A DNA stretch of 64,000 nucleotides. Origin: Spirochaetota bacterium (lineage in GTDB: Bacteria > Spirochaetota > UBA4802 > UB4802). How positions within the stretch are numbered: the stretch's first letter is position 1; each line of letters opens with the position of its first letter. The stretch is from assembly GCA_026414805.1 (NCBI GenBank), contig JAOAIH010000005.1, positions 1 through 64,000 on the forward strand, given 5' to 3'. A model generated the notes under the pieces. That model searched no databases, was not told the origin of the DNA, and saw only the letters and a program-made list of their open reading frames with translations. The position numbers and the translations under genes are program-made. This document shows positions 27,478 through 46,558 of this stretch, one piece after another.

Positions 27478-27930
27478 ATGATTGATTCAATTTTAAAAGA
27501 TTTTAATCCTCAAAATAAAGAATTAATACTAGTAGCATTGCAAACGCTTACCCAACATGGGCAACTTGATCAGGAAGCGTTTCAAAAAGTAGCAAATTAT
27601 TTTAATGTTTCTCCTGCTAAGGTATATGCAGTGGGTTCTTTTTATTCCTTTATTCCTTTAGAGCAAAAAGGTAAATATGTAATACGTATATGTAAAAGCA
27701 TTTCTTGCGATATGGAACATAAAGAAGAGGTTATTGCGGCAATAAAACAATTTCTAGGAATTGATGTTGGACAAACTACAAACGATAAAATGTTTTCGAT
27801 AACTGAAGTAAATTGTCTGGGCTGGTGTGATGAAGCCCCAGTGATGATAATTAATGATATACCATATACAAAACTTACTAAGGAAAAAGCTATAGCAATT
27901 CTTACAGAATTAAAAAATAAACAAATATAA
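27478..27930 (+). CDS. NuoE/HydC-like [2Fe-2S] subunit of NAD-linked [FeFe] hydrogenase
   Basis: This 150-residue thioredoxin-fold ferredoxin has the four cluster ligands of NuoE as C72-x4-C77 and C113-x3-C117 (the second is CLGWC). It is the small electron-transfer subunit of trimeric HydABC-type hydrogenases, passing electrons between the flavin subunit and HydA. It opens the operon HydC, receiver, HydB, HydA. GGAGG stands 12 bases before the ATG, a somewhat long spacing. The N-terminal helical region is shorter than in complex I NuoE. Confidence 0.88.
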   Translation: MIDSILKDFNPQNKELILVALQTLTQHGQLDQEAFQKVANYFNVSPAKVYAVGSFYSFIPLEQKGKYVIRICKSISCDMEHKEEVIAAIKQFLGIDVGQTTNDKMFSITEVNCLGWCDEAPVMIINDIPYTKLTKEKAIAILTELKNKQI

Positions 27931-27968: not shown

Positions 27969-28319
27969 ATGAAAAAAATACTTATAGTTGATGATGATCG
28001 TGATGTTGTTATTTCATTAAAGGCAATCCTTTCGTCAAAAGGTTTTATTGTTTTTGAAGCATATAGTGGTGAAGAAGGGTTAGAAGTTTTTAATAAAGTT
28101 AATCCAGACATTGTGCTTCTTGACTTAATGATGGAGCAAGTAGATACAGGAATTAGTGTATGCAAGAAAATGCGTGCTGAAAATTCGAACGTAAAAATCT
28201 TTATGTTGAGTGCAGTTGGAGATGAAGCAGCAACTACTATTGATGTAATGAAAGTCGGTTTTAATGGCGCTATCTCCAAACCAGTATCTCCTGATGAATT
28301 GTTGCACTTAATTGATTAA
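27969..28319 (+). CDS. Stand-alone receiver-domain protein inside the hydrogenase operon
   Basis: A 116-residue CheY-like receiver with nothing else attached. The acidic pocket Asp8-Asp9-Asp10, phospho-acceptor Asp52, Ser81 at the Thr/Ser switch position and Lys104-Pro105 are all present, so it should be phosphorylatable. It has its own AGGAG site 9 bases upstream and lies between the NuoE-like and NuoF-like structural genes. It shares with the receiver at 40505 the less usual stretches MME..D.G right after the phospho-acceptor and GFNG...KPV.PD.L at the end, so the two form a subfamily. No output domain means it acts through protein contacts or as a phosphate shuttle. A kinase partner is not adjacent; the histidine kinase at 43538 is a candidate. 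Confidence 0.9.
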   Translation: MKKILIVDDDRDVVISLKAILSSKGFIVFEAYSGEEGLEVFNKVNPDIVLLDLMMEQVDTGISVCKKMRAENSNVKIFMLSAVGDEAATTIDVMKVGFNGAISKPVSPDELLHLID

Positions 28320-28331
28320 GGGAGGAATTCC

Positions 28332-29504
28332 ATGGAAGGTTTAGATATAAAATCTTTGCAGGAAAAATTTTCCTTAATATTTTCTATAAGAGATCATAAC
28401 AAAATATTACAATCAATAGTGAGCAAAAGTCCAGATGAAATTATAACACAAATTACAAAATCGGGTCTTAGAGGAAGAGGTGGAGCCGGATTCCCAACAG
28501 GAATTAAATGGAAAGCAGCTCAGGAAGTATATGCAAATCAAAAATTTGTAATTTGCAATGCGGATGAAGGTGAACCAGGCACCTTTAAGGATAGAAAAAT
28601 CCTACAAGAACATTGTGAGCTAGTGCTTTTGGGTATGTGTGCTGCTGCTAAGGCTATTGGTGCAACTATGGGTTATATCTATCTACGCGGGGAGTATGCA
28701 TTTTTAAAAAACTTAATTTCAGAACACATTAATGAATACAACAATCTATTCAAAAAATTTTCACTTAATTTTGCCATTTACCTGCGAATGGGAAGTGGTG
28801 CGTATGTTTGCGGTGAAGAGAGTGCTTTAATCGAATCCATTGAAGGCAACCGTGGTGAACCTCGCAATAAACCCCCATTCCCTGTGTCAAAAGGTTTATT
28901 TAATTGTCCCACTGTAGTCAATAATGTAGAAACACTTGCATATGCTGCAATCATTATGGATGAAGGATCTGCAAAATTTGCAGCAATTGGTACAAAGGAT
29001 TCTAAAGGTTCAAAAATGTTTTCAATTTCAGGAGATGCAAAAATCAAAGGTGTTTTTGAACTTCCTTTAGGAATGAAAGTAAAAGAACTTGTAGATATTT
29101 TTTCTGATGGTGATTCAAAAGCCGTTCAGATTGGAGGAGCATCAGGTTATTGTGTAGCACGTAAACAATTTGAAGATAGAATCATAGGTTATGAAGGTAT
29201 CCCTACAGGAGGTTCAATAATATTCTTTAATAGTTCGCGATCGATGTACAGGGTATTAATGAATTATCTTGATTTTTTCAAGGAAGAGTCATGCGGTCAA
29301 TGTACCCCTTGTAGAGTTGGTTGTCAGCAACTTTATTATGGTATAAAAGCAATAAGAAGTGGGAATAAACCTATAGATTATTTAAATGAATTGCAAAAAC
29401 TGGCACAAACAATGTCCATCACTGCAAAATGTGGACTTGGACAGTCTGTTGCAAATCCATTTATTTCAATCACAGAAAATTTCAAAGAAGAGATTTGCTT
29501 TTAG
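28332..29504 (+). CDS. NuoF/HydB-like NAD(H)- and FMN-binding subunit
   Basis: The 390-residue diaphorase subunit carries the NADH/FMN motifs GRGGAGFPTG (about 50) and CNADEGEPGTFKDR (about 76), GAYVCGEESAL (about 157), and the C-terminal [4Fe-4S] motif ESCGQCTPCRVG (about 318) with a later Cys in KCGLGQ (about 366). It lacks both the N-terminal thioredoxin domain and the C-terminal 2[4Fe-4S] ferredoxin domain of Thermotoga HydB. This could bear on whether the enzyme is electron-bifurcating or only NAD-linked; the sequence alone does not settle that. GGAGG 6 bases upstream fixes the start, 12 bases after the receiver gene. Confidence 0.92.
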   Translation: MEGLDIKSLQEKFSLIFSIRDHNKILQSIVSKSPDEIITQITKSGLRGRGGAGFPTGIKWKAAQEVYANQKFVICNADEGEPGTFKDRKILQEHCELVLLGMCAAAKAIGATMGYIYLRGEYAFLKNLISEHINEYNNLFKKFSLNFAIYLRMGSGAYVCGEESALIESIEGNRGEPRNKPPFPVSKGLFNCPTVVNNVETLAYAAIIMDEGSAKFAAIGTKDSKGSKMFSISGDAKIKGVFELPLGMKVKELVDIFSDGDSKAVQIGGASGYCVARKQFEDRIIGYEGIPTGGSIIFFNSSRSMYRVLMNYLDFFKEESCGQCTPCRVGCQQLYYGIKAIRSGNKPIDYLNELQKLAQTMSITAKCGLGQSVANPFISITENFKEEICF

Positions 29505-29518
29505 TCGGAGGCATTACG

Positions 29519-31291
29519 ATGAAAACAGTTTCGCTAACGATAAACGACAATAAAATAGAGGTTCCAGAATATTACACTGTACTTTACGCAGCAAAAGAAG
29601 CGGGTATTATTATCCCAACACTGTGTTACCATGATGATCTTTGTATAGCTGGTAACTGTAGAGTATGTTTGGTTGAGCAGAAAGGTATGAGATCACTTCA
29701 GGCTTCCTGTACTTTACAAGTGGCACAAGGCATGATTATTTACACCAATACCAGACGAGTACGAGAAGCACGTAGGACAATTATTGAATTACTATTATCT
29801 GAGCATTCTGATAATTGCACAACTTGTTATAAAAATGGAAAATGTGAGTTACAGCAACTTGCAAAAGAATATTTGATAGATGGAGAAAAATATATAAAAA
29901 TCATACGTCATTGGAATGTAGATGATTCATCTCCATCACTAATTAAAGATGATAGTAAATGTATAAAATGTACCAGATGTGTGCGTACATGTGAAGAATT
30001 GCAAGGTGTGTCAGCATTGTACAGTTCACACAAAGGTGAAGATTTAAAAATAACTACATTTTTTGATAAACCACTTAACGATGTAATTTGTACAAATTGT
30101 GGTCAGTGTATAAACAGGTGTCCTACAGGTGCTCTTATTGAAAAAAACTATATTAAGGAAGTATGGGATGCTATTGATGATGAAGAAAAATTTGTAGTTG
30201 TTCAGACAGCCCCTGCAGTACGCGTTAGTATATCTGAAGCATTAGGTTACGAGATTGGTCAAATTAGTACTGGAAAGCTTGTTGCTGCATTACGGAGACT
30301 TGGCTTTAATGCTGTTCTCGATACGGATTTTACTGCTGATTTAACAATTATTGAAGAAGGCAATGAATTTTTACAAAGAATTACCAAGGCGTTACGTGAT
30401 AAACAAAATGTAGCATTACCAATGACGACCTCATGTTCGCCAGGTTGGATAAAATTTGTTGAACATAAGTATCCCGAATTATTGGATAATGTTTCAACGT
30501 GCAAATCACCACAACAAATGTTTGGCGCACTTGCAAAAACCTATTACGCAAATAAGCGTAATATAGATCCTGCAAAAATGATTACTGTTTCAATTATGCC
30601 TTGTACAGCCAAAAAGTACGAAGCCAATAGACCAGAAATGTATTCTAGCGGATATAAAGATGTGGATTACGTGTTAACAACTAGAGAGTTAGCATTGATG
30701 ATACAACAAGCAGGTATTGATTTTGAAAAACTTCCAGATGAGAATTATGATTCAATAATGGGACAGTCAACTGGTGCAGCAGTAATTTTTGGAGCTACTG
30801 GCGGTGTAATGGAAGCTGCATTACGTACGGTTTATGAAATAGTAACCGGGAAGGAAGTGCCATTTGATAAATTGAACATTTTGCCTGTAAGAGGAATGGA
30901 AGGCGTGCGTTCTACTTCAATTACTATTTCTGGAACAAGGTCAGAGTACAATTTTCTTGAAGGGGTAACATTAAATGTTGCAGTAGCTCATGGTCTAGCG
31001 AATGCGGCGTTATTGATGGATGAAGTAAAAGAGGGGAAGAGCAATTATCATTTTATTGAAATAATGGCATGCCCTGGTGGATGTATAGGAGGAGGAGGGC
31101 AGCCACTACCTACCAACCGTGTTATTAGAAAAATACGTTCTGAAGCGATATACGAAGCAGATATGCAATTGCCTATACGCAAATCACATGAAAATCCAGA
31201 AATTAAACAAATTTACCAAGAGTTCCTTAAACAACCTTTGGGACATATATCGCATAATCTGTTACATACTCATTATATTAAACGACAGTAA
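29519..31291 (+). CDS. hydA: [FeFe] hydrogenase catalytic subunit HydA (NuoG-like N-terminus)
   Basis: The 590-residue cytoplasmic enzyme has, in order: a [2Fe-2S] domain (Cys36/47/50/64), a His-Cys3 [4Fe-4S] site (His96, Cys100/103/109), two ferredoxin-type clusters (Cys148/151/154/158 and 191/194/197/201), the H-cluster domain, and a fused small-subunit domain (about 548-590). H-cluster motifs are L1 TSCSPGW (Cys306), L2 MPCTAKKYEA (Cys362) and L3 EIMACPGGCIGGGGQP (Cys518/522). The second position of L1 is Ser, unlike the Cys in the exported paralogue; C or S is tolerated there in known L1 signatures. CGGAGG upstream fixes the start at 29519. With the NuoE- and NuoF-like subunits it should form a trimeric NAD-linked, possibly bifurcating, hydrogenase. 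Confidence 0.95.
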   Translation: MKTVSLTINDNKIEVPEYYTVLYAAKEAGIIIPTLCYHDDLCIAGNCRVCLVEQKGMRSLQASCTLQVAQGMIIYTNTRRVREARRTIIELLLSEHSDNCTTCYKNGKCELQQLAKEYLIDGEKYIKIIRHWNVDDSSPSLIKDDSKCIKCTRCVRTCEELQGVSALYSSHKGEDLKITTFFDKPLNDVICTNCGQCINRCPTGALIEKNYIKEVWDAIDDEEKFVVVQTAPAVRVSISEALGYEIGQISTGKLVAALRRLGFNAVLDTDFTADLTIIEEGNEFLQRITKALRDKQNVALPMTTSCSPGWIKFVEHKYPELLDNVSTCKSPQQMFGALAKTYYANKRNIDPAKMITVSIMPCTAKKYEANRPEMYSSGYKDVDYVLTTRELALMIQQAGIDFEKLPDENYDSIMGQSTGAAVIFGATGGVMEAALRTVYEIVTGKEVPFDKLNILPVRGMEGVRSTSITISGTRSEYNFLEGVTLNVAVAHGLANAALLMDEVKEGKSNYHFIEIMACPGGCIGGGGQPLPTNRVIRKIRSEAIYEADMQLPIRKSHENPEIKQIYQEFLKQPLGHISHNLLHTHYIKRQ

Positions 31292-31317
31292 CAACCGCAT
31301 CTATTGGTATCAGGTTA

Positions 31318-31352
31318 ATGGGGTGTGAAACATTCATACCCCATCTTTTTTA
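31318..31352 (+). terminator. Rho-independent terminator after hydA
   Basis: ATGGGGT and ACCCCAT form a 7-bp stem that continues through a G-T pair into TGAA/TTCA around an ACA loop, and is followed by CTTTTTT. It separates the hydrogenase structural operon from the maturase genes, so hydGEF probably have separate transcription or depend on read-through. Confidence 0.85.
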
Positions 31353-31394
31353 TGTGGTTTCATGTGATATAATAAAGATCAAAGGTATAAGATT

Positions 31395-32777
31395 ATGAAA
31401 GCATTCATAGATGAACGTCACATAGATAAAATTTTGAAACATGCTAATCCAGAAAAGTATAAAATAAACGAAATACTAGCTAAAGCTAAAGAATTAAAAG
31501 GTTTAAGTCTTGAGGATGTTGCGGTATTGAGTGTGTTACCTGATGAGATGACGCAAGATTTATATGCAACAGCTGATTATATTAAAAAACAAATTTATGG
31601 TAACAGAATAGTCCTCTTTGCACCATTGTATATATCAAATTATTGTAGTAACGATTGCATATATTGTGCATTCAGAGCAAGCAATACAAAAGCAAAGCGT
31701 AGTTTCTTGACAATGGACGAAATACAAAAAGAAGTAGAAACGCTCATTCAGCAGGGTCATAAACGTATTTTACTGGTTTCCGGTGAATCTTATCCCCCTT
31801 ATAAAGAAAATGGGCTTAAGTATATATTAAATGCCATTCAATGTATTTATAATAGCAAAAAAGATAAAGGGGAGATACGTCGTGTTAATGTAAATATTGC
31901 ACCGTTAACTGTTGAAGAATTTAAAGAACTAAAAACAGCCCAAATTGGTACATATCAGCTATTTCAGGAGACATATCACCACCAAACATACTCAAAGGTA
32001 CATCCTAAAGGGAAAAAAGCAGATTATTCATGGCGATTATACGCAATGGATAGAGCAATGCAGGCTGGTATTGATGATGTGGGAATAGGAGTGCTTTTTG
32101 GTTTGTATGATTGGCGTTTTGAGCTATTGGCATTAATGCAACATATTGAACATTTGGAAAAAACTTTTGGCGTAGGGCCACATACAATAAGCGTTCCCAG
32201 AATTGAGCCAGCAGTGAACACACCATTTTCACAAAACCCTCCATATCCTGTGAGCGATAGTGATTTTTTGAAAATCATTGCACTGTTACGCTGTGCTGTT
32301 CCATATACAGGGATAATACTTTCAACAAGAGAAAATCCTAATATACGCAGAAAAGCCTTGGAGTTGGGCGTATCACAAATATCAGCAGGAAGCAAAACAA
32401 ATCCAGGCGGGTATTCACTCAATGATGAAGTGGATGCGCAATTTAGTATTGGGGACCATCGTAGTCTTGATGAAGTTATCTTTGACCTAATAAATATGGG
32501 GTTTATTCCCTCATTCTGCACTGCTTGTTACCGACTTGGAAGAACGGGAATTGATTTTATGGATAAAGCAAAACCCGGACTTATAAAGCAATATTGCACA
32601 CCTAATGGAATTGCAACTTTTATGGAGTATCTTTTAGATTATGCACAAGAAGAAACAAGATTAAAAGGAATGGAGCTAATCCAATCAATGCTCTTGCAAA
32701 TGGAAAAGACTTTGTCACATAAAACGCAAAGGCTACTAAAACTCATTGAAAGTGGAAAACGGGATGTTTACTGCTAA
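31395..32777 (+). CDS. hydG: [FeFe] hydrogenase H-cluster maturase HydG
   Basis: HydG is a radical-SAM tyrosine lyase that makes the CO and cyanide ligands and the iron synthon for the H-cluster. The radical-SAM motif is CSNDCIYC (about residue 85). The C-terminal auxiliary-cluster motif is CTACYR with a later Cys (KQYCTPNG, about 22 residues on). Length 460 is typical. AAAGG upstream supports the ATG. It is the first of hydG-hydE-hydF, a maturation set sufficient for both [FeFe] enzymes in the window. Confidence 0.95.
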   Translation: MKAFIDERHIDKILKHANPEKYKINEILAKAKELKGLSLEDVAVLSVLPDEMTQDLYATADYIKKQIYGNRIVLFAPLYISNYCSNDCIYCAFRASNTKAKRSFLTMDEIQKEVETLIQQGHKRILLVSGESYPPYKENGLKYILNAIQCIYNSKKDKGEIRRVNVNIAPLTVEEFKELKTAQIGTYQLFQETYHHQTYSKVHPKGKKADYSWRLYAMDRAMQAGIDDVGIGVLFGLYDWRFELLALMQHIEHLEKTFGVGPHTISVPRIEPAVNTPFSQNPPYPVSDSDFLKIIALLRCAVPYTGIILSTRENPNIRRKALELGVSQISAGSKTNPGGYSLNDEVDAQFSIGDHRSLDEVIFDLINMGFIPSFCTACYRLGRTGIDFMDKAKPGLIKQYCTPNGIATFMEYLLDYAQEETRLKGMELIQSMLLQMEKTLSHKTQRLLKLIESGKRDVYC

Positions 32778-33852
32778 CATGATAAAAGAAATTTGTTCTA
32801 CAGGAAATTTTGGGATCGAGGAATGTATATCTATATTATCTATTGAGGATAATGAATTAATTAATGAAATATTTTCTTGTGCACGAGAGATCACCGATAG
32901 ATTTGTTGGCCGCAAAATTTATTTACGTGGATTAATTGAAGTTTCAAATATATGCAAAAAAAATTGTTACTATTGTGGTATACGGCGTGATAATAAAAAA
33001 ATAAAACGGTATATGTTACAGTTTGAGGAGATAGCAACTGCAATCAATTTTAGCTATAATGTTGGTTTTGGTTCGATTGTTCTTCAGGCTGGTGAACAAA
33101 CGTCCAAAGAATTTATTTCTCTAATTACAAAGTGTATACAATACGCAAAAAGAATTAGCAATGGACAATTAGGTATTACATTATCGATGGGTGAGCAAAA
33201 AAAGGAAGTATTTCAACAGTGGTTTGATGCTGGTGCTGATAGATATTTACTTCGCATTGAAACTTCAGATCCATCACTTTATGCAAAGCTTCACCCTTGT
33301 GACCATTCATTTACCAGGCGAATGGAATGTCTGTATGATTTAAAAGAAATTGGATATCAGGTTGGAACAGGTGTAATGATTGGTGTGCCGCATCAAACGG
33401 TTGAAAATTGTGCAAGGGACATTCTTTTTTTTAAGGAAATGGATGTGGATATGATTGGCATGGGACCTTATATAGTGCATCCAGATACCCCTATAGGAGC
33501 TATCGCACATAATTATAATAAAAAAAGGATAGTACAGCAAACTTTGCTAATGATTGCACTTTCACGAATCATATGCAGAGATGTCAATATTGCTTCTACT
33601 ACAGCGCTTGAAGTACTTGATAAAGATGCAATAATCAAAAGCTTGTATGCAGGTGCCAACGTTAAGATGATAAATGTAACTCCTGAAAAAGCTAGAAAAC
33701 ACTATGAATTATACAAAGAGAAAACAAACCCTTCTTTGCTCATTGCTGTAAAAGAATTTGAAGAGATGGTCAAAGCATCTGGTTTTGATGTAGCATACTT
33801 TGCAAAAGGTGATCCGCTCCATTTTCATGAAAGGAAGCTGTCATGTCAGTAG
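32764..33852 (+). CDS. hydE: [FeFe] hydrogenase H-cluster maturase HydE
   Basis: HydE is a radical-SAM enzyme acting with HydG and HydF to build the diiron subcluster. The motif CKKNCYYCGIR (about residue 62) is present, and the protein is about 362 residues, as expected for HydE of the BioB/ThiH-like group. The ATG at 32764 overlaps the hydG stop by 14 bases; a second ATG at 32779 is possible. The downstream hydF start overlaps its end by 10 bases, so the three maturases are tightly coupled. Confidence 0.93.
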   Translation: MFTANMIKEICSTGNFGIEECISILSIEDNELINEIFSCAREITDRFVGRKIYLRGLIEVSNICKKNCYYCGIRRDNKKIKRYMLQFEEIATAINFSYNVGFGSIVLQAGEQTSKEFISLITKCIQYAKRISNGQLGITLSMGEQKKEVFQQWFDAGADRYLLRIETSDPSLYAKLHPCDHSFTRRMECLYDLKEIGYQVGTGVMIGVPHQTVENCARDILFFKEMDVDMIGMGPYIVHPDTPIGAIAHNYNKKRIVQQTLLMIALSRIICRDVNIASTTALEVLDKDAIIKSLYAGANVKMINVTPEKARKHYELYKEKTNPSLLIAVKEFEEMVKASGFDVAYFAKGDPLHFHERKLSCQ

Positions 33853-35108
33853 TAGTTGAACGCAACATTATTGGAATTTTTGGCTGCATGAATGTTGGTA
33901 AAAGTTCTGTTCTTAATCTAATAGTGCAGCAGGAAGCTTCTATTGTTGATGCTACTCCTGGAACTACTGCCGATACAAAAGAGGTCTTGTGCGAAATTCA
34001 CGGTATTGGTCCTGTAAAACTTCTTGATACAGCAGGTTTTGATGAAGAAGGAATGCTTGGCCAAAAGAAAAGAAAAAAAGTGTACGATAATCTTAAAGAA
34101 TGCGATTGTGTATTACTGATTATTGATCCATCGCGTGAAAACTTTTTATACGAAGAATCATTTATTAAAAATGCCCGCGAACAGAGTAAACAGATACTAA
34201 TTGTTTTTAATATATTTGACAATACCAACCCAGAAAAAATTGAAAATATTGCTGATAAATTGCCAGTTCTTAAATTTTTCCCTTGGATTCAAATCAAAGC
34301 AACTGATGAAGTGTATAGAAATAATCTTATTCAATTTATTATTTCCCATTTTACACCTAAAACTAAAGATACCCCACTGATACCGTTTTTAAAAAAAGAT
34401 CATTTTTATGTTCTGATTATCCCAATGGATGAAGAAACACCAAAAGGGCGGTACCTACGTCCACAGGCAATGGTTGAAGAATATATAACTCGCAATTGGG
34501 CATATCCTGTGTCGTATCGATTGAATTTGACAAAAGCGCGAGGAACTGAAGAAGAAAAAAAAGAAGAATATGAAAGATTTACTAAATTTTTATCATCACT
34601 AAAACAAAAGCCACATTGCATTTTTACTGATTCTCAGGCTATCGATGTAATAGGATTGTGGTGTCCTGATGATATAATGCTGACTACTTTTTCAATTGTT
34701 ATGATACACTACCAAAGTAATGGTAAGTTACATAAATTTGTTAATGCAGTAAAGACAATTGACTCATTACCCAAAAATTCAATGGTGCTAATAGCAGAAG
34801 CCTGCAATCATAATAGAATTGCAGAAGATATTGGTACAGTTCAAATTCCACGAATTTTAAAAAACAAATATCCAGGATTACGCGTTGAGCATTCGTTTGG
34901 AAAAATATTTATGGATATCGAACAAATTAAACAATATTCACTTATTATCCACTGTGGTGGATGTATGATATCGCGGCAGGCATTGCAAGCTCGCATGCGA
35001 GATTATGATATTGCTGATGTTCCATATACAAACTATGGAATATTTCTTTCATATATTCAAGGGGAAAAAATTTTTAAAAAAGTATTGTCTCCATGGATGC
35101 TCATGTAA
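33843..35108 (+). CDS. hydF: [FeFe] hydrogenase maturation GTPase/scaffold HydF
   Basis: HydF carries the assembled diiron subcluster to apo-HydA. The 421-residue protein has a GTPase domain with P-loop GCMNVGKSS (about 14) and DTAGF (about 61), a middle dimerisation domain, and the C-terminal Fe-S motif CxH...HCxxC seen as EACNHNR (about 320) and HCGGC (about 377). All expected ligands are present. Confidence 0.94.
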   Translation: MSVVVERNIIGIFGCMNVGKSSVLNLIVQQEASIVDATPGTTADTKEVLCEIHGIGPVKLLDTAGFDEEGMLGQKKRKKVYDNLKECDCVLLIIDPSRENFLYEESFIKNAREQSKQILIVFNIFDNTNPEKIENIADKLPVLKFFPWIQIKATDEVYRNNLIQFIISHFTPKTKDTPLIPFLKKDHFYVLIIPMDEETPKGRYLRPQAMVEEYITRNWAYPVSYRLNLTKARGTEEEKKEEYERFTKFLSSLKQKPHCIFTDSQAIDVIGLWCPDDIMLTTFSIVMIHYQSNGKLHKFVNAVKTIDSLPKNSMVLIAEACNHNRIAEDIGTVQIPRILKNKYPGLRVEHSFGKIFMDIEQIKQYSLIIHCGGCMISRQALQARMRDYDIADVPYTNYGIFLSYIQGEKIFKKVLSPWMLM

Positions 35109-35446
35109 TCATACAGCAGGGATATTGGTATGATTATCATTGATAATAAAAAAATAGAAATAGTAAAGCCATCAGATATAATAAAATTGAATATTCAAAT
35201 TAAAATTTTTTGTTTATTAATCGTAGCAAAATAAGAATAATTTTTATAATATAATAATATTATGAGAATAACATTAATATAATAGTAGCATGTATTGGGA
35301 AAAATGTTTTTATTTAAAATTTTTTTATTGAAAATAAAATTCTTTATCAAAGGATTGTACTGATTACAGTGCACCATTGTTTTTTACGTAACTATTATTA
35401 AATTTTTAATAATCAAAATTATTATTAAATATTAAAAAGAGGTACT
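35109..35446. other. 338-base AT-rich gap before the Hox operon
   Basis: This is the longest gene-free stretch in the window. It contains a possible 34-codon frame at 35130-35234 (ATG 6 bases after AGGGATATTGGT-type purines, product MIIIDNKKIEIVKPSDII and on), which I cannot support as a gene. It also has a 12-base palindrome ACTGATTACAGT at 35359-35370 that could be an operator. A weak ATTATC/GATAAT hairpin is at 35133-35147. An AT-rich inverted repeat around 35400-35430 lies just before the AGAGG site of the first hox gene. No clear sigma-70 promoter pair was found, although this region must hold the hox promoter. Confidence 0.5.
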
Positions 35447-37255
35447 ATGGCAAGCTTAGATGCGGTTGTTAAACAGGTTGTTTCAAAGTACAACAACGAC
35501 AAGACCCGTTTAATGGACATCGTTACTGATGTACAATTAGAATTAGGGTGTGTGTCGGATGAGGCTGTTGTTCAGATTGCCAATCAACTTAACGTTTCCA
35601 AAGTGGATGTTGAAGGAGTGGTAACTTTCTATCACTTCTTCACTAAAGTCCCACGAGGGAAATATACGGTATATCTGAACAACAGTGCGGTTGCTAATAT
35701 GAAAGGTCGTGCTGCAGTTGCAAAAGCTTTTGAAGAAGCTGCAGGTTGCAGCTTTGGAAGGACAACTTCCGATGGCCTTATTGGTTTGTACGATACTTCT
35801 TGTATCGGCATGAATGATCAGGAACCTGCTGCTATCATAAATGGTGTTGTTTTTACCAGTCTTACACCAGATACGGTTAAAGAGATAGTAGCCGGGATGA
35901 AAGCAGGAAAGGATGTGAAGGACCTGGTGAAAGAATATGGTGATGGGGCTAATCAGTCTGATTTAATTCGTGCAATGGTGAAAAATAATATTATGCGTAA
36001 AGGTCCTGTGCTTTTTGCACCATACGAACAGGGTTCCGCAATTAAAGCTGCACTTTCCCGAAAGCCGGAAGATGTAATTGAAGAAGTTAAAATTGCAAAT
36101 CTTAGAGGTAGAGGTGGTGCAGGTTTCCCTACAGGTATGAAATGGGAATTTTGCAGAAAAGCAGAAGGTGCGAAACATTATGTAATCTGCAATGCTGATG
36201 AAGGCGAACCAGGAACATTTAAAGATCGTGTTATTTTAACCGAGTTGCCTCATATGTTGTTTGAAGGTATGGCAATAGCTGGATATGCTGTTGGTGCTAA
36301 TGAGGGTATATTATATCTAAGAGCTGAGTACTTGTATTTGAAAAAGTATCTTGAAAAAATTTTGGATGATTTACGCTCAAAAAACCTTCTAGGTAAAAAC
36401 ATTGCAGGTAAAGGATTTGATTTTGATATCCGTATTCAGATGGGTGCAGGTGCCTATATATGTGGTGAGGAGTCAGCGCTCATTGAATCAGCTGAAGGCA
36501 AGCGTGGTGAACCTCGTAACCGTCCTCCATTCCCGGTACAGAAAGGATATCTTGGCTATCCTACTACAGTCAACAATGTTGAAACGTTATGCTGTGCAGT
36601 TCGCATTATGTTAGAAGGTGGCGAATGGTTTGCCAAGATGGGGACAGCTCAGTCAAAAGGAACAAAACTATTAAGCGTTTCAGGTGATTGCCAAAATCCA
36701 GGTATTTATGAAGTAGAATTTGGGATTACTATCTCAACATTGCTAGAAATGGTTGGTGGAAGAACCGCAAAAGCTGTTCAGGTGGGCGGTCCTTCAGGTA
36801 CCTGCATAGGTAAAAAAGACTTTGGGCGAAGAATTTGTTTTGATGACCTTGCAACTGGTGGTTCAATAATTATTATTGGGCCTAATCGTGATTTGTTTGA
36901 TATAGTCCATAACTTTATGGATTTCTTTGTAGAAGAGTCTTGTGGATGGTGTGTACCCTGCCGAGCTGGTAATGTGATATTGAAGCAAAAACTTGAAAAA
37001 ATAATGTCAGGGAAAGCATCAATCAAGGACATTGATGAACTTGAAAGCTGGTGTAAGATAGTTAAAGCTACCAGCCGTTGCGGATTAGGGCAGACATCAC
37101 CAAATCCTATATATACAACAATTCAAAATTTCAGGGAAATTTATGAAGCAAAGGTAAAGAAGGATACAGATTATGTATCCACATTTGATCTTTTAGCTGC
37201 TGTTGAAGAATCATGCAAAGCAGCAGGAAGAATCCCAAGGGTAGAGGAACACTAA
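35447..37255 (+). CDS. hoxF: Fused HoxE-HoxF diaphorase subunit of NAD-linked [NiFe] hydrogenase
   Basis: The 602-residue protein joins a NuoE-like thioredoxin-fold domain (about 1-135) to a NuoF-like flavoprotein (about 180-585). The flavoprotein half is intact: GRGGAGFPTG (about 222), CNADEGEPGTFKDR (about 249), CGEESAL (about 334) and ESCGWCVPCRAG (about 499). In the NuoE-like half the [2Fe-2S] ligands are gone: the first Cys pair is replaced around residues 78-84 (NNSAVAN) and only Cys119 remains of the second (SCIGMND). A cluster-less N-terminal domain is also known in Ralstonia-type HoxF. AGAGG 5 bases upstream sets the start. It opens the hox operon. Confidence 0.92.
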   Translation: MASLDAVVKQVVSKYNNDKTRLMDIVTDVQLELGCVSDEAVVQIANQLNVSKVDVEGVVTFYHFFTKVPRGKYTVYLNNSAVANMKGRAAVAKAFEEAAGCSFGRTTSDGLIGLYDTSCIGMNDQEPAAIINGVVFTSLTPDTVKEIVAGMKAGKDVKDLVKEYGDGANQSDLIRAMVKNNIMRKGPVLFAPYEQGSAIKAALSRKPEDVIEEVKIANLRGRGGAGFPTGMKWEFCRKAEGAKHYVICNADEGEPGTFKDRVILTELPHMLFEGMAIAGYAVGANEGILYLRAEYLYLKKYLEKILDDLRSKNLLGKNIAGKGFDFDIRIQMGAGAYICGEESALIESAEGKRGEPRNRPPFPVQKGYLGYPTTVNNVETLCCAVRIMLEGGEWFAKMGTAQSKGTKLLSVSGDCQNPGIYEVEFGITISTLLEMVGGRTAKAVQVGGPSGTCIGKKDFGRRICFDDLATGGSIIIIGPNRDLFDIVHNFMDFFVEESCGWCVPCRAGNVILKQKLEKIMSGKASIKDIDELESWCKIVKATSRCGLGQTSPNPIYTTIQNFREIYEAKVKKDTDYVSTFDLLAAVEESCKAAGRIPRVEEH

Positions 37256-37256
37256 T

Positions 37257-37952
37257 ATGAGTACGATAAATTTTACTATAGATGGAAAACCATGTAAAGC
37301 AAAACCAGGCCAAACTATTGTTGAAGCTGCCAAGGATAATGGCATTTATATTCCTACCTTATGCCATTTTGAAGGCTTGAAGCCTGCGGGAACATGTCGC
37401 ATTTGTACGGTAAAAGTAGCGGGTAGAAATATGGCTGCCTGTACCACACCTGTAACCGAAGGTATGGTGGTGGAAAATAAAACTGCAGAACTTGAAGATT
37501 ACCGCAAAGCTATCATAGAGATGCTTTTTGTTGAAGGCAACCATATGTGCCCAACCTGTGAGAAGAGTGGAAATTGTGAATTACAGGCATTAGGGTACAG
37601 GTATATGATGATGGTACCACGTTTCCCATTCCTGTTCCCCAAACGTACTCTTGATGCCTCACTTCCAAAGATTGTGATTGAACGTAACCGATGTGTTCAG
37701 TGCTTGCGATGTGTACGCGGCATCACAACATCTGATGGCAAACGTATCTTTGGTATTGTGAACAGAGGTGGGCATGTAGAAATCACTGTTGATAAGGATC
37801 TTGCAGCAAGCATGACCGATGAAATGGCTCAGAAAGCAATGGATTTATGCCCGGTAGGTGCTATCTTGAAGAAAGAAGTTGGTTTTGCCATTCCTATTGG
37901 CAAACGTAAATTTGATACTAGACCTATTGGCAGCGAAATTGAAAAAGCGTGA
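37257..37952 (+). CDS. hoxU: HoxU, diaphorase small subunit (ferredoxin-like)
   Basis: HoxU bridges the flavin subunit and the hydrogenase module. The 231-residue protein carries a [2Fe-2S] domain (CHFEGLKPAGTCRIC followed by a Cys 12 residues on), the His-Cys3 site in HMCPTCEKSGNCELQ (about 97), and a further ferredoxin-type cluster (CVQCLRCVRG, about 148, with a distal CPVG). This is the NuoG N-terminal plan cut down to Hox size. It starts 1 base after the hoxF stop. Confidence 0.92.
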   Translation: MSTINFTIDGKPCKAKPGQTIVEAAKDNGIYIPTLCHFEGLKPAGTCRICTVKVAGRNMAACTTPVTEGMVVENKTAELEDYRKAIIEMLFVEGNHMCPTCEKSGNCELQALGYRYMMMVPRFPFLFPKRTLDASLPKIVIERNRCVQCLRCVRGITTSDGKRIFGIVNRGGHVEITVDKDLAASMTDEMAQKAMDLCPVGAILKKEVGFAIPIGKRKFDTRPIGSEIEKA

Positions 37953-37982
37953 TATCTTAACGAAGATCTATGGAGGAACACA

Positions 37983-38522
37983 ATGAGTAAACCAGTTGTC
38001 GCAACTGCTTCATTGGCAGGATGTTTTGGATGCCATATGTCCATTCTGGACATTGATGATAGAATTTTAAAGCTGATTGAATTGGTAGAATTTAATAAGT
38101 CACCAATTGATGATATTAAAACATTCACCAAACAGTGTGATATTGGGCTGATTGAAGGTGGATGCTGTAACAGTGAAAATGTAGAAAACTTAAAGTTATT
38201 CCGAAAAAATTGTAAAATTCTTATATCAGTTGGCGAATGTGCAATAATGGGTGGATTACCAGCAATGCGCAATGGTATTCCTGTAAAAGAATGTCTGGAA
38301 GAAGCTTATTTAAAGTGCCCAACAGTAGATGATAATATCATTCCCAATGATGATGAATTGCCAATGATTCTGGATAGAGTATACCCATGCCATGAAATAG
38401 TCAAAATTGATTATTTCCTTCCCGGCTGCCCACCACGTGCAGATTTAATCTGGGAAGCGCTGGTAGCACTTCTGACTGGCAAAGAATTAGATTTGCCATA
38501 TGAAGTTGTTAAGTTTGACTAA
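37983..38522 (+). CDS. hoxY: HoxY, [NiFe] hydrogenase small subunit
   Basis: HoxY holds the proximal [4Fe-4S] cluster that takes electrons from the NiFe site. The 179-residue protein shows the ligands in LAGCFGCHMS (about 14), GGCCNS (about 60), GECAIMGG (about 87) and PGCPPRAD (about 148). It is short, as in soluble group 3d enzymes, with no Tat signal and no membrane anchor. GGAGG 6 bases upstream supports the start. Confidence 0.93.
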   Translation: MSKPVVATASLAGCFGCHMSILDIDDRILKLIELVEFNKSPIDDIKTFTKQCDIGLIEGGCCNSENVENLKLFRKNCKILISVGECAIMGGLPAMRNGIPVKECLEEAYLKCPTVDDNIIPNDDELPMILDRVYPCHEIVKIDYFLPGCPPRADLIWEALVALLTGKELDLPYEVVKFD

Positions 38523-38547
38523 TTTTGTTTTTAGGAGATGAAAGCTT

Positions 38548-39999
38548 ATGGCTAGAAAAATAACGATAGAACCTGTAACAAGGGTTGAAGGTCATGGTAA
38601 AGTGACCATTCAGCTTGATCCTCAAAACAATGTTCTTGAATCGCGATTCCATGTAGTAGAATTTAGAGGATTTGAACGTTTTGTTCAGGGCAGACCATAT
38701 TGGGAAGCACCTGTTTTGGTGCAGCGTCTTTGTGGTATATGCCCTGTAAGCCATCATTTAGCAGCAGCTAAAGCGATGGATGTAATCGTTGGTGTTGGCC
38801 CAGATGGATTAACACCTACTGCAGAAAAAATGCGACGACTTATGCATTATGGGCAGATGTTCCAATCCCATGCATTACATTTCTTCCATTTGGTATCTCC
38901 AGATTTACTCTTTGGGGTTGATGCAGATCCAACAATACGCAATGTTATTGGTGTAGCATTGAAATTCCCTGATCTGGCAGTACAGGGTGTAATGATGAGA
39001 AAGTTTGGTCAGGAGATAATCAGGGCAACTGCTGGTAAAAAGATTCATGGTACTGGAGCAATTCCAGGTGGTATAAACAAAAACCTGAGTATTCAGGAAC
39101 GAGATGAGTTTCTTAAAGGCGCTGACCCAATGAACATCAAAAAGATGATTGAATGGTCAGTGGCAGCAGTAAATCTCTTTAAAGATTATCATAAGAAGAA
39201 TAAAGATTTCATTGATAACTTTGCAGCATTTCCGTCCAATCATTTGAGTTTAGTACGAAAAGACGGAGCGCTTGATCTTTATCATGGTGTATTACGTGCA
39301 GTTGATGCTGATGGTAAGAAAATATTAAATGATGTAGACTATCAGGACTATTTACAATACATAGGCGAGGAAGTACGTTCCTGGAGTTACATGAAGTTCC
39401 CATACCTTAAATCATTAGGCAAAAAAGATGGATGGTACAGGGTAGGGCCACTTGCTCGACTGAATACTGCTGAATTTATACCTACACCACTTGCTCAAAA
39501 AGAATTTGAAGAATTTAAAGCTTATACAAAAGGCAAGCCAAATAATATGTCAATGCACATGCATTGGGCACGGCTCATTGAGTTGTTGCATTCAGCAGAG
39601 GTAATTGAACAGCTCCTTAATGATCCTGACCTTCAGGGTGATAAACTAGTAACCAAAGGTAAGAAGGTTAAAGAAGGTGTTGGACTGATTGAAGCTCCAC
39701 GAGGTACCTTATTCCATCACTATCGCATCAATGATAATGACCAGATTGAGATGGCAAACCTCATTGTCTCAACCACAAATAACAATGAGCCAATGAACAG
39801 GGCAGTAAACTGGGTAGCGGTGAATCAAATTAGCGGCAAGAAAGAGATTACCGAAGGCATGCTCAATGCTGTTGAAGTAGCCATACGAGCGTATGACCCA
39901 TGCTTAAGCTGTGCAACGCATGCATTGGGCAAAATGCCTTTAGAAGTAACATTGGTTGATTCAGAGGGTAATGTCATAGATCAAAAAAGGAAGCAATAA
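38548..39999 (+). CDS. hoxH: HoxH, [NiFe] hydrogenase large subunit
   Basis: HoxH binds the Ni-Fe active site through four Cys: RLCGICPVSHH (about 61-71) and DPCLSCATH (about 450-458). The residues after the final His form a C-terminal extension of about 25 residues, which must be removed by a maturation protease before the site closes; the hoxW gene directly downstream supplies one. Length 483 is typical for HoxH. AGGAG lies 10 bases before the ATG. Confidence 0.95.
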   Translation: MARKITIEPVTRVEGHGKVTIQLDPQNNVLESRFHVVEFRGFERFVQGRPYWEAPVLVQRLCGICPVSHHLAAAKAMDVIVGVGPDGLTPTAEKMRRLMHYGQMFQSHALHFFHLVSPDLLFGVDADPTIRNVIGVALKFPDLAVQGVMMRKFGQEIIRATAGKKIHGTGAIPGGINKNLSIQERDEFLKGADPMNIKKMIEWSVAAVNLFKDYHKKNKDFIDNFAAFPSNHLSLVRKDGALDLYHGVLRAVDADGKKILNDVDYQDYLQYIGEEVRSWSYMKFPYLKSLGKKDGWYRVGPLARLNTAEFIPTPLAQKEFEEFKAYTKGKPNNMSMHMHWARLIELLHSAEVIEQLLNDPDLQGDKLVTKGKKVKEGVGLIEAPRGTLFHHYRINDNDQIEMANLIVSTTNNNEPMNRAVNWVAVNQISGKKEITEGMLNAVEVAIRAYDPCLSCATHALGKMPLEVTLVDSEGNVIDQKRKQ

Positions 40000-40481
40000 T
40001 GTTGAAAAATGTTAAGTGCTTGTTATATGGTTATGGCAATCCCGGCAGGCAGGATGATGGGCTGGGCATTGAGCTTGCAATGCTTGTTGAAAATGATCAT
40101 TTGTTACATCAGTATGTAGATGTAGATTATAACTATCAGCTCAATATTGAAGATGCCTTAACCATTTCAGAATATGATATGGTAATATTTGCTGATGCAG
40201 CACTTAACATTGATAAACCATTTGAATTAAATAGGATTCAGCCGGCACATACAATTACATTTACTACTCATGAGCTGTCGGCTGAATCTATACTTGCGCT
40301 TTGCCATGATTTGTATGATAAAAAGCCTGAGAGCTATATGCTGGCTATTAGGGGCTATGAGTGGGAAATGGGATTACCAATGACAGATATGGCAAAACGT
40401 AATTTAAATGATGCATACAAATTTGTATCAGAATTTATTGTAAACCACTTTGCTCGTTACCAAGTGGGCAAGGGGATTTAA
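39999..40481 (+). CDS. hoxW: HoxW-like [NiFe] hydrogenase maturation protease
   Basis: This 160-residue endopeptidase of the HyaD/HoxW family clips the HoxH C-terminal tail once nickel is inserted. The family start is present as GYGNPGRQDDG (about residues 11-21) with the metal-sensing acidic residues, DADAA-like FADAA (about 67), and the HE of TTHELS (about 91). Its ATG shares a base with the hoxH stop, so the two are translationally coupled, which fits a one-substrate enzyme. Confidence 0.88.
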   Translation: MLKNVKCLLYGYGNPGRQDDGLGIELAMLVENDHLLHQYVDVDYNYQLNIEDALTISEYDMVIFADAALNIDKPFELNRIQPAHTITFTTHELSAESILALCHDLYDKKPESYMLAIRGYEWEMGLPMTDMAKRNLNDAYKFVSEFIVNHFARYQVGKGI

Positions 40482-40504
40482 TTTTACTAACCAGGAGTGA
40501 TAGT

Positions 40505-40879
40505 ATGGCAAACAAGAAAGTTATTTTAGTAATTGACGATGATCCGGATATTTTAGATTCTATTAAAGCTATTCTCTCTGCAAATGGGTTTGACGTTGTG
40601 ACCGCAATGAGCGGAAAAGAAGGTATTGATGCGGTTACAGCAAGTAAACCAGACCTCATTTTGTGTGACATGATGATGGAAAGAATAGATGCTGGGACTA
40701 AGGTTGCACAGGAAATTAAGAAAAGCAATCCAGCTATACCAATTTATCTTTTAAGCAGTATTGGCACTGCAACGGCAACCAATGTTGAAATTGATAAATT
40801 AGGGTTTAATGGGGTTTTCCAGAAACCGGTTAACCCTGATAACCTTGTATCAACAATAAAGAAGGCGCTTAATATTTAA
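40505..40879 (+). CDS. Stand-alone receiver-domain protein ending the Hox operon
   Basis: A 124-residue CheY-like protein with Asp11-13, phospho-acceptor Asp55, Ser84/85 and Lys107-Pro108 all in place, and no output domain. It resembles the receiver at 27969, sharing KAILS..GF.V, the MME..D.G block after the phospho-acceptor and GFNG...KPV.PD.L. AGGAG 8 bases upstream and 23 bases spacing from hoxW make it part of the operon, and the terminator follows directly. So each NAD-linked hydrogenase has its own receiver protein. The function is unknown: it may tune activity or assembly by direct binding, or accept phosphate from an unlinked kinase. Confidence 0.9.
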   Translation: MANKKVILVIDDDPDILDSIKAILSANGFDVVTAMSGKEGIDAVTASKPDLILCDMMMERIDAGTKVAQEIKKSNPAIPIYLLSSIGTATATNVEIDKLGFNGVFQKPVNPDNLVSTIKKALNI

Positions 40880-40916: not shown

Positions 40917-40943
40917 AAAAAGCGGGTTTTTTAACCCGCTTTT
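40917..40943. terminator. Bidirectional terminator between the hox operon and pgk
   Basis: AAAAGCGGGTT, loop TTTT, and AACCCGCTTTT form an 8-bp GC-containing stem extended by A-T pairs. The T-runs on both strands serve the receiver gene from the left and pgk from the right. Confidence 0.9.
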
Positions 40944-43449: not shown

Positions 43450-43537
43450 ATGAGTTAGAGCATCATAGTCAAACGGTGCAATAACCTTATTGTACTATGT
43501 GCATTTATGTTATTATTTAATACAAACTATAACAGAA

Positions 43538-46500
43538 ATGATGAATAATTATAGATATCTTGATGCGATTAAAATTCCAATTATCATTTGTAACAATGAT
43601 GGAGCAATCAAATATATCAATCAATCATGTTTAATAGATGAGATAATACCTGATTATATATTAGCGGATTACAAAAAATATACCATATACGATATTTTTT
43701 TGTTAAATAAAGAACAAAGGGGAGAAATAGAAAAGGTTTTTCATCACGTTATCCATGAAAACAAAGTTATTTTAGATTTATATGAATTAATTATTACTAA
43801 AATAAAAAAAAATCATATAATAGTACAGATATTTCAAAACAAAAGCGCTGTTTTACAGAATGGTGTTAAAACAGAACATATAGAGCAAAAAGCCGATCAT
43901 GAAATTAGCCCATTTTTTTCAGCGTATGATCTACTTGATGATTTGATACACATTACAGACAAAAATGGCAAGATTATATATGCAAATACGGCAATAAAGA
44001 AATTATATGGAGATATAAAAGGACAATATTGTTATCAAGTTTTTGGTTTTTGTGAAGATTATTGTCCTGATTGTAAATTATCCTTAGTATTAGATGGCAA
44101 TACCATACGATATGAAGTAAAGTTGAAAAAAAATAATCAATATTATGATGTAATCAATTCCCCATTCGTGGATTTTGATGGCAATATATATAAAATATCT
44201 ATCATGAGGAATCTTGAAGAAATTGTTGAGAAACAAAATACACTGGTGTTATTTCAAAATGCTATTAACAGATCACGCAATTTAGTATGTTTTACCAGTC
44301 AGGACGGACAAATATTATATGCCAATGATACATTTATTAAATATTTTGGTGAGACATATAAAAAAGAAAATAATATTTTAAAATTATTGAATTATTCAAA
44401 AGATGATTTGTTTATGACAGAGGATCATAAAGAAATAAAAATCAAAATTATCAATGATGAACTATATTTCAAAGTATTCGTTTATCCTATTCAATCCTTA
44501 AATAATGAAACTGTATTTGTTTTTATAGCTAGTGATATTACAGATCTTAAAAATTTAGAAAAGAAAATTGATATAGAAAAAAACTATTTTAAAAGCATCA
44601 TTGATAATACAATTGATGGATTTTTTGTCATTGATAAAGATCAAAATATTATAGATTGCAACCCTTCATTTTATAAGATGTTTAATATATCTACTGATAG
44701 CTTGGGTACATTAAAGCTTTCCGATCTCTTTGACCCTTTTTATAAAAGAGAATTTGATAAAAAAATTAATTATCTTAAAAAATCACGAGTTTCACAAATC
44801 ACTGAAGTAAGCCGATCAAATAAAGAATTCCATAATTATATAATAAGCCTTAACTATTTATCAATATCAGGTAATGATAACGAACACTATTATGGTTTTG
44901 TTAAAGACATAACGGACATAACACGTTTGCATAAGATTATTGAAAATGAAAGAAACTATAACAGAAGAATAATTGAAACCGTTAAATTGGGTTTTGTAGT
45001 TATAAATGAATATGGTGCAATCATTGATTATAATAATGCTTTTTTGCAATTAATTGGTCGTTTGGGCAAGAATGTCAAAGGTGAGATGTTCAGCTTGTAT
45101 ATTACGCCACTAGATAAAGAAATTTTTGATGATGCAACGATTTCTTCCCAAGAGATGCTTCTTGATTTTGAAGCTATAGTTCATTCAGCAGACAATGAGG
45201 ATAAAAATGTAATTGTATCCATGTCAAAGTTATATGACATTTTGGGTAATTACTTAGGACATTTTGCTTTCATACGCGATATTACACATCAAAAAAAAAT
45301 TGAAAATGAAATTATACAACAATCCAAGCAGGTTATTGAATTGATTAATTCATTAACGCAATTTACAATAAATATTGTACGTATTGATGATGTTGAAAAT
45401 CTTATATCACAAATATATTTATTTATTAATACAATACTGAGTCCTGATTATATTGAAATTCTAGTGAATACCAATAATATATATTACAGCCATATATATA
45501 AAAATAATGAGTATATGGTTAAAAATACTGAAATAAGTTATAAAACTTCTTTTGTTATACAAAAGTTATCAAAGAATAAATCAATCCTTACAATAACTAA
45601 TCCAGATGTTGAACTCAACGATGAGGATCAATTATTGTTCAACAATATACTAGGATTCCAAAATATTATTTTCATACCTATCTTTGTTGTAAAAGATCTT
45701 AAAATAGTAATAATAGTCGCTTTCAATAAAAAAATTGAGGCAATAAATAACGTTGTTGTTACAGTATTAACTGGAGTTGCTAATTTAATTGCTATTGCAT
45801 ATGAAAAAATTACTTCACTCTCAGAGCAAGTAAAAATGAAGGAAGCACTTGATAGATATGAAAAGTTAGTTGCAATTGGAAGAATAATAGCAGGAGTTGC
45901 CCATGAAATCAATAATCCTTTATCAATTATGCAATTGGATATAGCTGAGTTAGATCAAAAGCTTGGGGAAGGAGATTACGATCAGGAAATAAAAGATATC
46001 ATCAAATCACTTTTGGAGGAAATTCAGCGTATTAGTAATATTGTTAAGCAACTTAAAGATTATGCTAAACCTGCAGCATTGAATGATGATATTATACATC
46101 TCAATGAAATTTTCAGAATGTATCCATTAAAAATATTATCTAAAAATATTCAAAAGAAGGGTATACCAATAAATATAAACATTCCTAAACAAAAAATATT
46201 TGTTAAGATGCCACTTACAAGATTAATTCAGGTTGTTATGAATATTTTAACTAATGCTGAAGATGCTGTAGTTGAAAAAGGTGAGGGAAGCATAACTATT
46301 GATATATCAACTGAACTTAGAGACAGTAAACAATTTGCACGGTTAACCATCAAAGATACTGGAATAGGTATTCATGATGAAAATAAACATTTATTATTTG
46401 AACCATTTTTTACTACCAAATCAAAGGAAGGTACAGGTTTGGGTTTGTCAATATCCTATTCAATAGTAAAAAGCTATAATGGTGAGATAGAGATAAATAG

Positions 46501-46558
46501 TAAAAGAGGATTAGGTACTGAAGTTATAATATTATTGCCAATGTATCAAAAAAGTTAA
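43538..46558 (+). CDS. Soluble multi-PAS sensor histidine kinase
   Basis: About 1006 residues with no membrane segment. Five PAS-like repeats come first, each with a D/E-x-D-G or 'ANxxF' type core, then a GAF-like region (about 610-760), a dimerisation domain with VAHEINNPL (phospho-His near residue 788), and a HATPase with NILTNAEDA, KDTGIGI and GTGLGLSIS. The second PAS contains CYQVFGFCEDYCPDC, a Cys-rich motif seen in some PAS domains that may bind metal or a cluster. No receiver is fused and no response regulator is adjacent, so the partner is open; the hydrogenase receivers are possible. A TTG at 43490 would add 16 residues; ATG 43538 is chosen, but neither has a good Shine-Dalgarno. 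Confidence 0.88.
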   Translation: MMNNYRYLDAIKIPIIICNNDGAIKYINQSCLIDEIIPDYILADYKKYTIYDIFLLNKEQRGEIEKVFHHVIHENKVILDLYELIITKIKKNHIIVQIFQNKSAVLQNGVKTEHIEQKADHEISPFFSAYDLLDDLIHITDKNGKIIYANTAIKKLYGDIKGQYCYQVFGFCEDYCPDCKLSLVLDGNTIRYEVKLKKNNQYYDVINSPFVDFDGNIYKISIMRNLEEIVEKQNTLVLFQNAINRSRNLVCFTSQDGQILYANDTFIKYFGETYKKENNILKLLNYSKDDLFMTEDHKEIKIKIINDELYFKVFVYPIQSLNNETVFVFIASDITDLKNLEKKIDIEKNYFKSIIDNTIDGFFVIDKDQNIIDCNPSFYKMFNISTDSLGTLKLSDLFDPFYKREFDKKINYLKKSRVSQITEVSRSNKEFHNYIISLNYLSISGNDNEHYYGFVKDITDITRLHKIIENERNYNRRIIETVKLGFVVINEYGAIIDYNNAFLQLIGRLGKNVKGEMFSLYITPLDKEIFDDATISSQEMLLDFEAIVHSADNEDKNVIVSMSKLYDILGNYLGHFAFIRDITHQKKIENEIIQQSKQVIELINSLTQFTINIVRIDDVENLISQIYLFINTILSPDYIEILVNTNNIYYSHIYKNNEYMVKNTEISYKTSFVIQKLSKNKSILTITNPDVELNDEDQLLFNNILGFQNIIFIPIFVVKDLKIVIIVAFNKKIEAINNVVVTVLTGVANLIAIAYEKITSLSEQVKMKEALDRYEKLVAIGRIIAGVAHEINNPLSIMQLDIAELDQKLGEGDYDQEIKDIIKSLLEEIQRISNIVKQLKDYAKPAALNDDIIHLNEIFRMYPLKILSKNIQKKGIPININIPKQKIFVKMPLTRLIQVVMNILTNAEDAVVEKGEGSITIDISTELRDSKQFARLTIKDTGIGIHDENKHLLFEPFFTTKSKEGTGLGLSISYSIVKSYNGEIEINSKRGLGTEVIILLPMYQKS

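Follow-up and report, generated by a model that had tools for sequence, protein, structure and literature searches.

Why should two hydrogenases that differ in their catalytic subunits each be encoded together with a small receiver protein of their own? The question is raised by a 64,000-nucleotide stretch of DNA from a Spirochaetota bacterium (contig JAOAIH010000005.1, hereafter the window), which belongs to a draft genome (3.24 Mb in 186 contigs; label G000). One operon in the window encodes an [FeFe]-hydrogenase in the order NuoE-RR_F-NuoF-HydA-HydG-HydE-HydF and another a [NiFe]-hydrogenase in the order HoxEF-U-Y-H-W-RR_N, with RR_F and RR_N denoting the stand-alone receivers (Table 1). 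The comparisons described below suggest that both may represent a lineage of single-domain response regulators that is dedicated to mostly NAD(P)-linked enzymes of molecular hydrogen (H2) and formate metabolism and that acts directly on these enzymes when phosphorylated, a joint proposal that is given about an even chance of being correct.

A preliminary description of the window had placed RR_F between the NuoE-like and NuoF-like genes and RR_N at the end of the Hox operon, and both positions are confirmed, the latter gene lying directly after the hoxW-type protease gene. The two genes run in the same direction as the enzyme genes with tight spacing, and a Shine-Dalgarno-like sequence lies just 5' of each. 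RR_F (116 amino acids (aa)) and RR_N (124 aa) cover positions 1-110 of the 111 in the PF00072 profile with nothing attached, and hence consist, like other single-domain response regulators, of a receiver extending over the whole protein without an output domain. Their phosphorylation sites are complete, comprising the DDD pocket, the phospho-Asp (D52 in RR_F and D55 in RR_N), Ser and Lys, and both sequence blocks previously said to be shared are present exactly as claimed (MMEQVDTG in RR_F and MMERIDAG in RR_N; GFNGAISKPVSPDELL and GFNGVFQKPVNPDNLV, respectively). The two proteins are 44% identical over 114 residues and are mutual best matches (110 bits) among the 50 PF00072 matches of the genome, in agreement with their earlier placement in one subfamily; the runner-up to each is one common third protein (75-80 bits), which is hydrogenase-linked too. 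A monomer model of RR_N (pLDDT 86) has the receiver fold, with five strands alternating with five helices.

The third receiver sits between a formate-hydrogenlyase (FHL)-like gene set and a histidine kinase gene, at a locus that runs from molybdopterin oxidoreductase, sulfhydrogenase-beta-like protein, flavin/NAD subunit, HycI protease and antiporter to NuoCD-like protein, NuoH, NuoI, NuoB, receiver and kinase. It closes the FHL-like operon, so that each of the genome's three most closely matching stand-alone receivers goes with a different H2/formate complex. The loop following the phospho-Asp likewise sets these three apart: the pattern D-x-x-M-[not P]-x4-G occurs in 3 of the 51 receiver domains of the genome, exactly the three linked ones, and the ordinary D-x-x-M-P in 21. 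An alignment of 16 members indicates that the Pro-less loop, longer by one residue, is common to most of the lineage, whereas the strict MME form is not; DDD, phospho-Asp and Lys are invariant throughout, and the switch position is occupied by S or T. At the FHL-like operon (L276 7225-18268; L277 1-5903; G000:C9), kinases and receivers are found on either side, and a resembling arrangement with two stand-alone receivers is present in Ca. Saccharicenans (L447). A protein of about 170 aa without a Pfam match (L165 9409-9921; L136 5299-5811 and L277 5352-5903, both on the minus strand) adjoins RR_N-type receivers or kinases in FHL-like loci and carries a conserved C-terminal block, (I/L)P(K/R)GM(V/I)KERF(L/I/V)GG.

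An order-level survey of 59 related genomes revealed a gap separating the scores of the subfamily from those of other receivers. A NuoF or HoxH homologue lies within 6 kb of 38 of the 58 subfamily members, and in the reverse direction a receiver is found within 3 kb of 26 of 31 HoxH orthologues (in G028, HoxH lies at the end of one contig and RR_N at the end of another) and in all five short-HydB [FeFe] operons. The position of RR_F (NuoE-RR-NuoF-HydA) is kept in the relatives G004, G028, G036 and G040, and the interval from the hoxW stop to the receiver start ranges from -8 to +81 bp at the 25 Hox loci that yielded both genes, with the genes further downstream varying between families. Some genomes of the order contain Fdh-HoxEF-MFS-rubrerythrin-RR operons, one locus (L149) combines the receiver with HoxEF and a Cache-type kinase, and further members in some genomes either adjoin kinases or have no evident partner. 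Generalization of the linkage to all NuoF-type diaphorases was rejected, as a receiver accompanies 5 of the 89 other NuoF homologues in these relatives.

Additional features were observed. In L145 (736-3444) and L431, a stop at a similar place divides formate dehydrogenase alpha into parts of about 354 and 531 aa, and this stop is possibly a selenocysteine codon. RR_N-type receivers occur as tandem duplicates in L145 (7229-8423) and L150 (517-1654). Beside an RR_F-type receiver and divergent from the Hox operon, a protein of about 236 aa is encoded in L115 (3220-3927, minus strand) and L122 (7559-8269, minus strand), the L122 copy having no Pfam match.

Beyond the order, species genomes were scanned for the conserved blocks. 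Some of the receivers recovered close a Hox operon (L167) or precede nuoE or a NuoEF fusion in contigs of Acidobacteriota, Ignavibacteriota and Actinomycetota, and many others are unlinked generic receivers. Among 248 genomes of Bacteroidota (here the phylum of L179; NCBI lists Ignavibacteriota apart), 23 NuoF matches continue into HydA, and a stand-alone receiver directly precedes nuoE in 22 of them. A profile made from 16 receivers, which were linked members, and applied without neighbour information to 247 Acidobacteriota genomes yielded 97 matches. Linkage within 1.5 kb was seen for 26 of the best 30, to catalytic or maturation genes in 25 cases and to a sensory hydrogenase-kinase in one; the best 30 include four query sequences, so that the independent count is 22 of 26. 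Weaker matches, viewed over about 4 kb per side, are linked in 16 of 20 cases, L424 via a sensory kinase only and L436 via weak matches. The linked genes in this phylum are of the Hox, [FeFe], group 3b, FHL-like and formate dehydrogenase types. These counts are not independent events and are inflated by vertical inheritance and operon transfer.

The expectation that receivers with these blocks would neighbour hydrogenase genes was thus borne out in several phyla, and relatives scattered without hydrogenase linkage, the outcome named beforehand as refuting, were not seen. The linkage to two NAD-linked hydrogenases stands, but its scope was drawn too narrowly, since the lineage is also present in group 3b, FHL-like and formate dehydrogenase operons. 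Extension to all group 3b hydrogenases was in turn rejected: a receiver occurs at 2 of 30 Chloroflexota loci, which makes the association patchy there. Tandem receivers of Nitrospirota (L172 6192-7032; L174 8971-9805), which lie behind [NiFe]-hydrogenase and MetV-type genes, show the ordinary MP motif and were not counted in the subfamily, and an apparent receiver-NuoE fusion in L168 was dismissed as an out-of-frame upstream extension.

In a tree of 135 receivers built from 125 columns by a quick method, all linked receivers judged to be operon partners fall in one 54-row clade (SH-aLRT 95), which also contains a few background rows, and RR_F and RR_N group together in a 25-row clade (SH-aLRT 99). 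The one labelled row outside the larger clade, L169_8118 (345 aa), is another kind of regulator located about 3 kb from hydrogenase genes. Mapped onto the tree, the label of linkage requires 8 changes, compared with 30-41 in 300 shuffles. On a quick tree with few columns, the lineage is accordingly separated as a clade from the remaining receivers of the genome, and most of its members adjoin H2 or formate enzyme genes, both in the order and in the two Acidobacteriota sets.

Linked receivers often have histidine kinases nearby, some of which carry an H2-sensor domain. Of 20 extended Bacteroidota loci, 11 contain a fusion of a sensory [FeFe]-hydrogenase with HisKA-HATPase, as do L179 and L203; the cassette is arranged as sensory fusion, receiver, receiver-PAS-kinase, receiver, NuoE, NuoF and HydA, and it frequently follows directly on a second HydB-HydA pair. 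Eight of the 20 loci retain the receiver without the sensory kinase, and the receiver next to nuoE persists in most Bacteroidota loci that have no kinase cassette. At several loci of this phylum (L375, L376, L378-L380, L386, L388, L390 and L391), two HydB-HydA sets flank the cassette of sensory kinase plus receivers, an arrangement in which a single switch might serve both hydrogenases.

The source genome itself encodes a sensory [FeFe]-hydrogenase-kinase of 659 aa (G000:C97; L453 2050-4029), which is 41% identical over its length to the Bacteroidota type and has no adjoining receiver gene. Its kinase domain shares 59% identity with that of the kinase beside the third (FHL) receiver and 32% with that of the PAS-rich kinase in the window. 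The former value suggests that the G000:C97 and FHL-adjacent kinases serve the receiver set, and one or both of them, or related kinases, probably phosphorylate the receivers of this genome. The PAS kinase in the window is a possible but weak candidate partner of RR_N; it was dropped as the preferred cognate because its position beside RR_N is conserved only within the genus and because of its low identity to the sensory kinase.

Control of soluble hydrogenases is usually ascribed to gene expression, redox state and substrate levels. In the mechanism proposed here, the receiver Asp would be phosphorylated by a histidine kinase, in many cases one fused to a sensory [FeFe]-hydrogenase, and the phospho-receiver would bind its own enzyme or a maturation intermediate and alter activity or assembly. 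The flux of H2, NAD(P)H or formate could then track the sensed H2 or redox state with no wait for transcription. Without an output domain, the receiver has to work by binding a partner. Its constant neighbour is the enzyme or the protease of that enzyme, a separate copy accompanies each enzyme, and kinases are optional; on these grounds a direct effect on the enzyme or on its assembly is favoured over a relay or a role in maturation only. A dedicated phospho-switch of this kind is judged from gene order and sequence to be about evenly balanced between right and wrong. The broader proposal, slightly more tentative, is that such control is widespread, with a sensory [FeFe]-hydrogenase or related kinase signalling to enzyme-specific receivers that may gate [FeFe]-, Hox, group 3b and FHL-type enzymes and thereby set the direction or share of flux.

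Several observations weigh against direct control. For 20 of the order's 58 subfamily members, no NuoF or HoxH gene lies within 6 kb; some of these members are at contig ends and others beside kinases. Receivers are absent from 84 of the 89 other NuoF homologues and from 28 of the 30 Chloroflexota group 3b loci, indicating that these enzymes can work alone, and no receiver-enzyme fusion was seen in the loci examined. Relay-type receiver-kinase proteins among the neighbouring genes and, in the G000:C9 cluster, a hybrid kinase with a GerE (LuxR-type DNA-binding) domain would suit a transcriptional output. The latter two findings favour the strongest alternative, in which the receivers, as Spo0F- or DivK-like relay intermediates or phosphate sinks, connect a sensor kinase and receiver-kinase proteins to a distant transcription factor, their place in the operon serving expression feedback. 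At many loci, receiver-HisKA-HATPase proteins are encoded next to the receivers, and Spo0F and DivK are among the closest solved folds to the RR_N model by fold similarity. However, the receiver is the sole signalling gene seen in many loci and stays with the structural genes as kinases vary (the eight Bacteroidota loci mentioned above), and an own copy for each enzyme would be needless for a shared relay; a relay is accordingly regarded as possible, though distinctly less probable than direct control.

A role confined to maturation or assembly, with the receiver influencing the insertion of cofactors or the proteolytic processing step instead of the completed enzyme, would fit the placement of the receiver gene directly after the maturation protease gene in Hox and several group 3b operons and the one subfamily member that adjoins hypF (L134). 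[FeFe] operons, on the other hand, have no such protease, and the receiver there abuts nuoE rather than hydE, hydF or hydG, which leaves this explanation improbable. Hitch-hiking of a receiver trapped in an old operon without a functional tie, for which conserved order through common descent within one order and variable copy numbers and positions could be cited, is very improbable in view of the recurrence across several enzyme types and phyla, the differing positions (before nuoE, between nuoE and nuoF, and after the protease) and the clustering of linked receivers in one clade.

The enzymes to which RR_F and RR_N would be dedicated can be classified from their gene products. HydA, whose open reading frame opens at 29429 with homology beginning at about residue 31, exceeds the curated cut-off of the NCBIfam 'group A6' NADH-dependent [FeFe]-hydrogenase model, and the closest solved HydA is 7q4v. 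No Fer4 domain was found in the 390-aa HydB, which thus does not show the C-terminal 2x[4Fe-4S] of electron-bifurcating HydABC. HoxH scores highest against 5xf9, ahead of 7t2r (500 bits) and 5odc (411 bits), and by these solved-protein scores is closest to characterised Hox enzymes of group 3d. The two operons, formerly called unrelated, are so in their catalytic subunits but share homologous NuoE/NuoF-type diaphorase modules (about 45% for the NuoF parts). Three PF01512 (NuoF-type) matches exist in the source genome, namely those of the two operons and a 440-aa protein judged by length to be a putative RnfC-like protein. Divergent from the [FeFe] operon, a second [FeFe]-hydrogenase large subunit with a lipoprotein/export-like N-terminus is encoded at 26015-27280 (minus strand), and a separate open reading frame at 25656-25976 (minus strand) resembles a hydrogenase small subunit, the pair being like periplasmic two-subunit enzymes.

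Table 1. Features of the two hydrogenase operons and their surroundings in the window
Feature	Position	Strand	Basis
NuoE-like subunit (HydC type)	27478..27930	+	PF01257 2.5e-40
RR_F, stand-alone receiver inside [FeFe]-hydrogenase operon	27969..28319	+	PF00072 2.3e-26
NuoF-like subunit (HydB type, short; without C-terminal ferredoxin domain)	28332..29504	+	PF01512 and PF10589 only
Catalytic [FeFe]-hydrogenase HydA	29519..31291	+	NF040763 876 bits, cut-off 765
HydG maturase	31395..32777	+	TIGR03955 529 bits
HydE maturase	32746..33852	+	TIGR03956 332 bits
HydF maturase	33843..35108	+	TIGR03918 319 bits, slightly below cut-off 325.6
HoxEF fusion (diaphorase)	35447..37255	+	PF01257, PF01512, SLBB, PF10589
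HoxU	37257..37952	+	Fer2_4, NADH-G_4Fe-4S_3
HoxY small subunit	37983..38522	+	NF045875 129 bits (under cut-off) and position
HoxH large subunit	38548..39999	+	closest solved protein is NAD-reducing Hox enzyme 5xf9, 544 bits
HoxW-type maturation protease	39999..40481	+	TIGR00072 68 bits, above cut-off
RR_N, stand-alone receiver, last gene of Hox operon	40505..40879	+	PF00072 2.3e-23
Bidirectional terminator-like hairpin 3' of RR_N	40918..40943	.	
PAS-rich sensor histidine kinase	43490..46558	+	PAS domains, HisKA, HATPase_c

Parts of this picture have been described previously. Sensory [FeFe]-hydrogenases and histidine-kinase-like genes in hydrogenase operons are known (PMC11406978, PMC8163306, PMC8880783), a receiver gene adjoining the cytoplasmic [NiFe]-hydrogenase of Syntrophaceticus schinkii is mentioned in passing (PMC5113046), and a generic count of neighbour families touches on receivers in hydrogenase operons (PMC12727194). 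The main text of the Bfu study (PMC11406978) does not mention 'response regulator' or 'receiver', nor does that of the Hydrogenedentota paper mention receivers, and no description of a receiver lineage in hydrogenase operons or of direct receiver control of H2/formate enzymes was found in the open-licence papers searched. The finding defines a small, testable gene set from several phyla of mostly uncultured bacteria. If the proposal is true, a phospho-receiver for each enzyme adds a fast, sensor-driven switch to hydrogenase control, with relevance for the engineering of H2 and formate metabolism, and provides a candidate answer to the signal output of putative sensory [FeFe]-hydrogenases.

Among known enzymes, the short-HydB trimeric [FeFe]-hydrogenases (BfuABC sub-type II, PMC11406978) likewise have a HydA above the NF040763 cut-off, and the HydB of the window is without extra ferredoxin domains; from domain content rather than a tree, the [FeFe] enzyme appears to be of sub-type II. 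The NAD-reducing Hox [NiFe]-hydrogenases (group 3d, 5xf9) share the gene set HoxEF-U-Y-H-W, from which the operon in the window differs by its terminal receiver. Next closest to this Hox enzyme is the bifurcating NiFe-HydABCSL of Acetomicrobium mobile, whose operon includes a gene named HisK (PMC8880783). On the sensory side, group C/D [FeFe]-hydrogenases (HydS) are matched by the sensory-domain/HisKA-HATPase fusions of the Bacteroidota operons and of the source genome. The onward signal path of the group D enzyme was stated to be open (PMC8163306), and receivers of the present lineage are candidates for its output.

The HoxJ/HoxA (HupT/HupR) system follows the same logic, leading from a hydrogenase-like sensor through a kinase to a receiver. 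Its receiver bears a transcription-factor output, unlike the output-less RR_F and RR_N. HoxJ/HoxA is described as an H2-sensing two-component system in PMC2974642. Closer in architecture are CheY, DivK, Spo0F and EpsW, single-domain regulators that exert their effect by binding other proteins. They combine the receiver fold and a complete phosphorylation site with the lack of an output domain, as do RR_F and RR_N; in Myxococcus xanthus, phosphorylated EpsW activates an enzyme directly and post-translationally (PMC12802240). The lineage of RR_F and RR_N nevertheless differs from these four regulators in forming a separate clade, in its mostly Pro-less, longer loop and in its genetic tie to H2 and formate enzymes.

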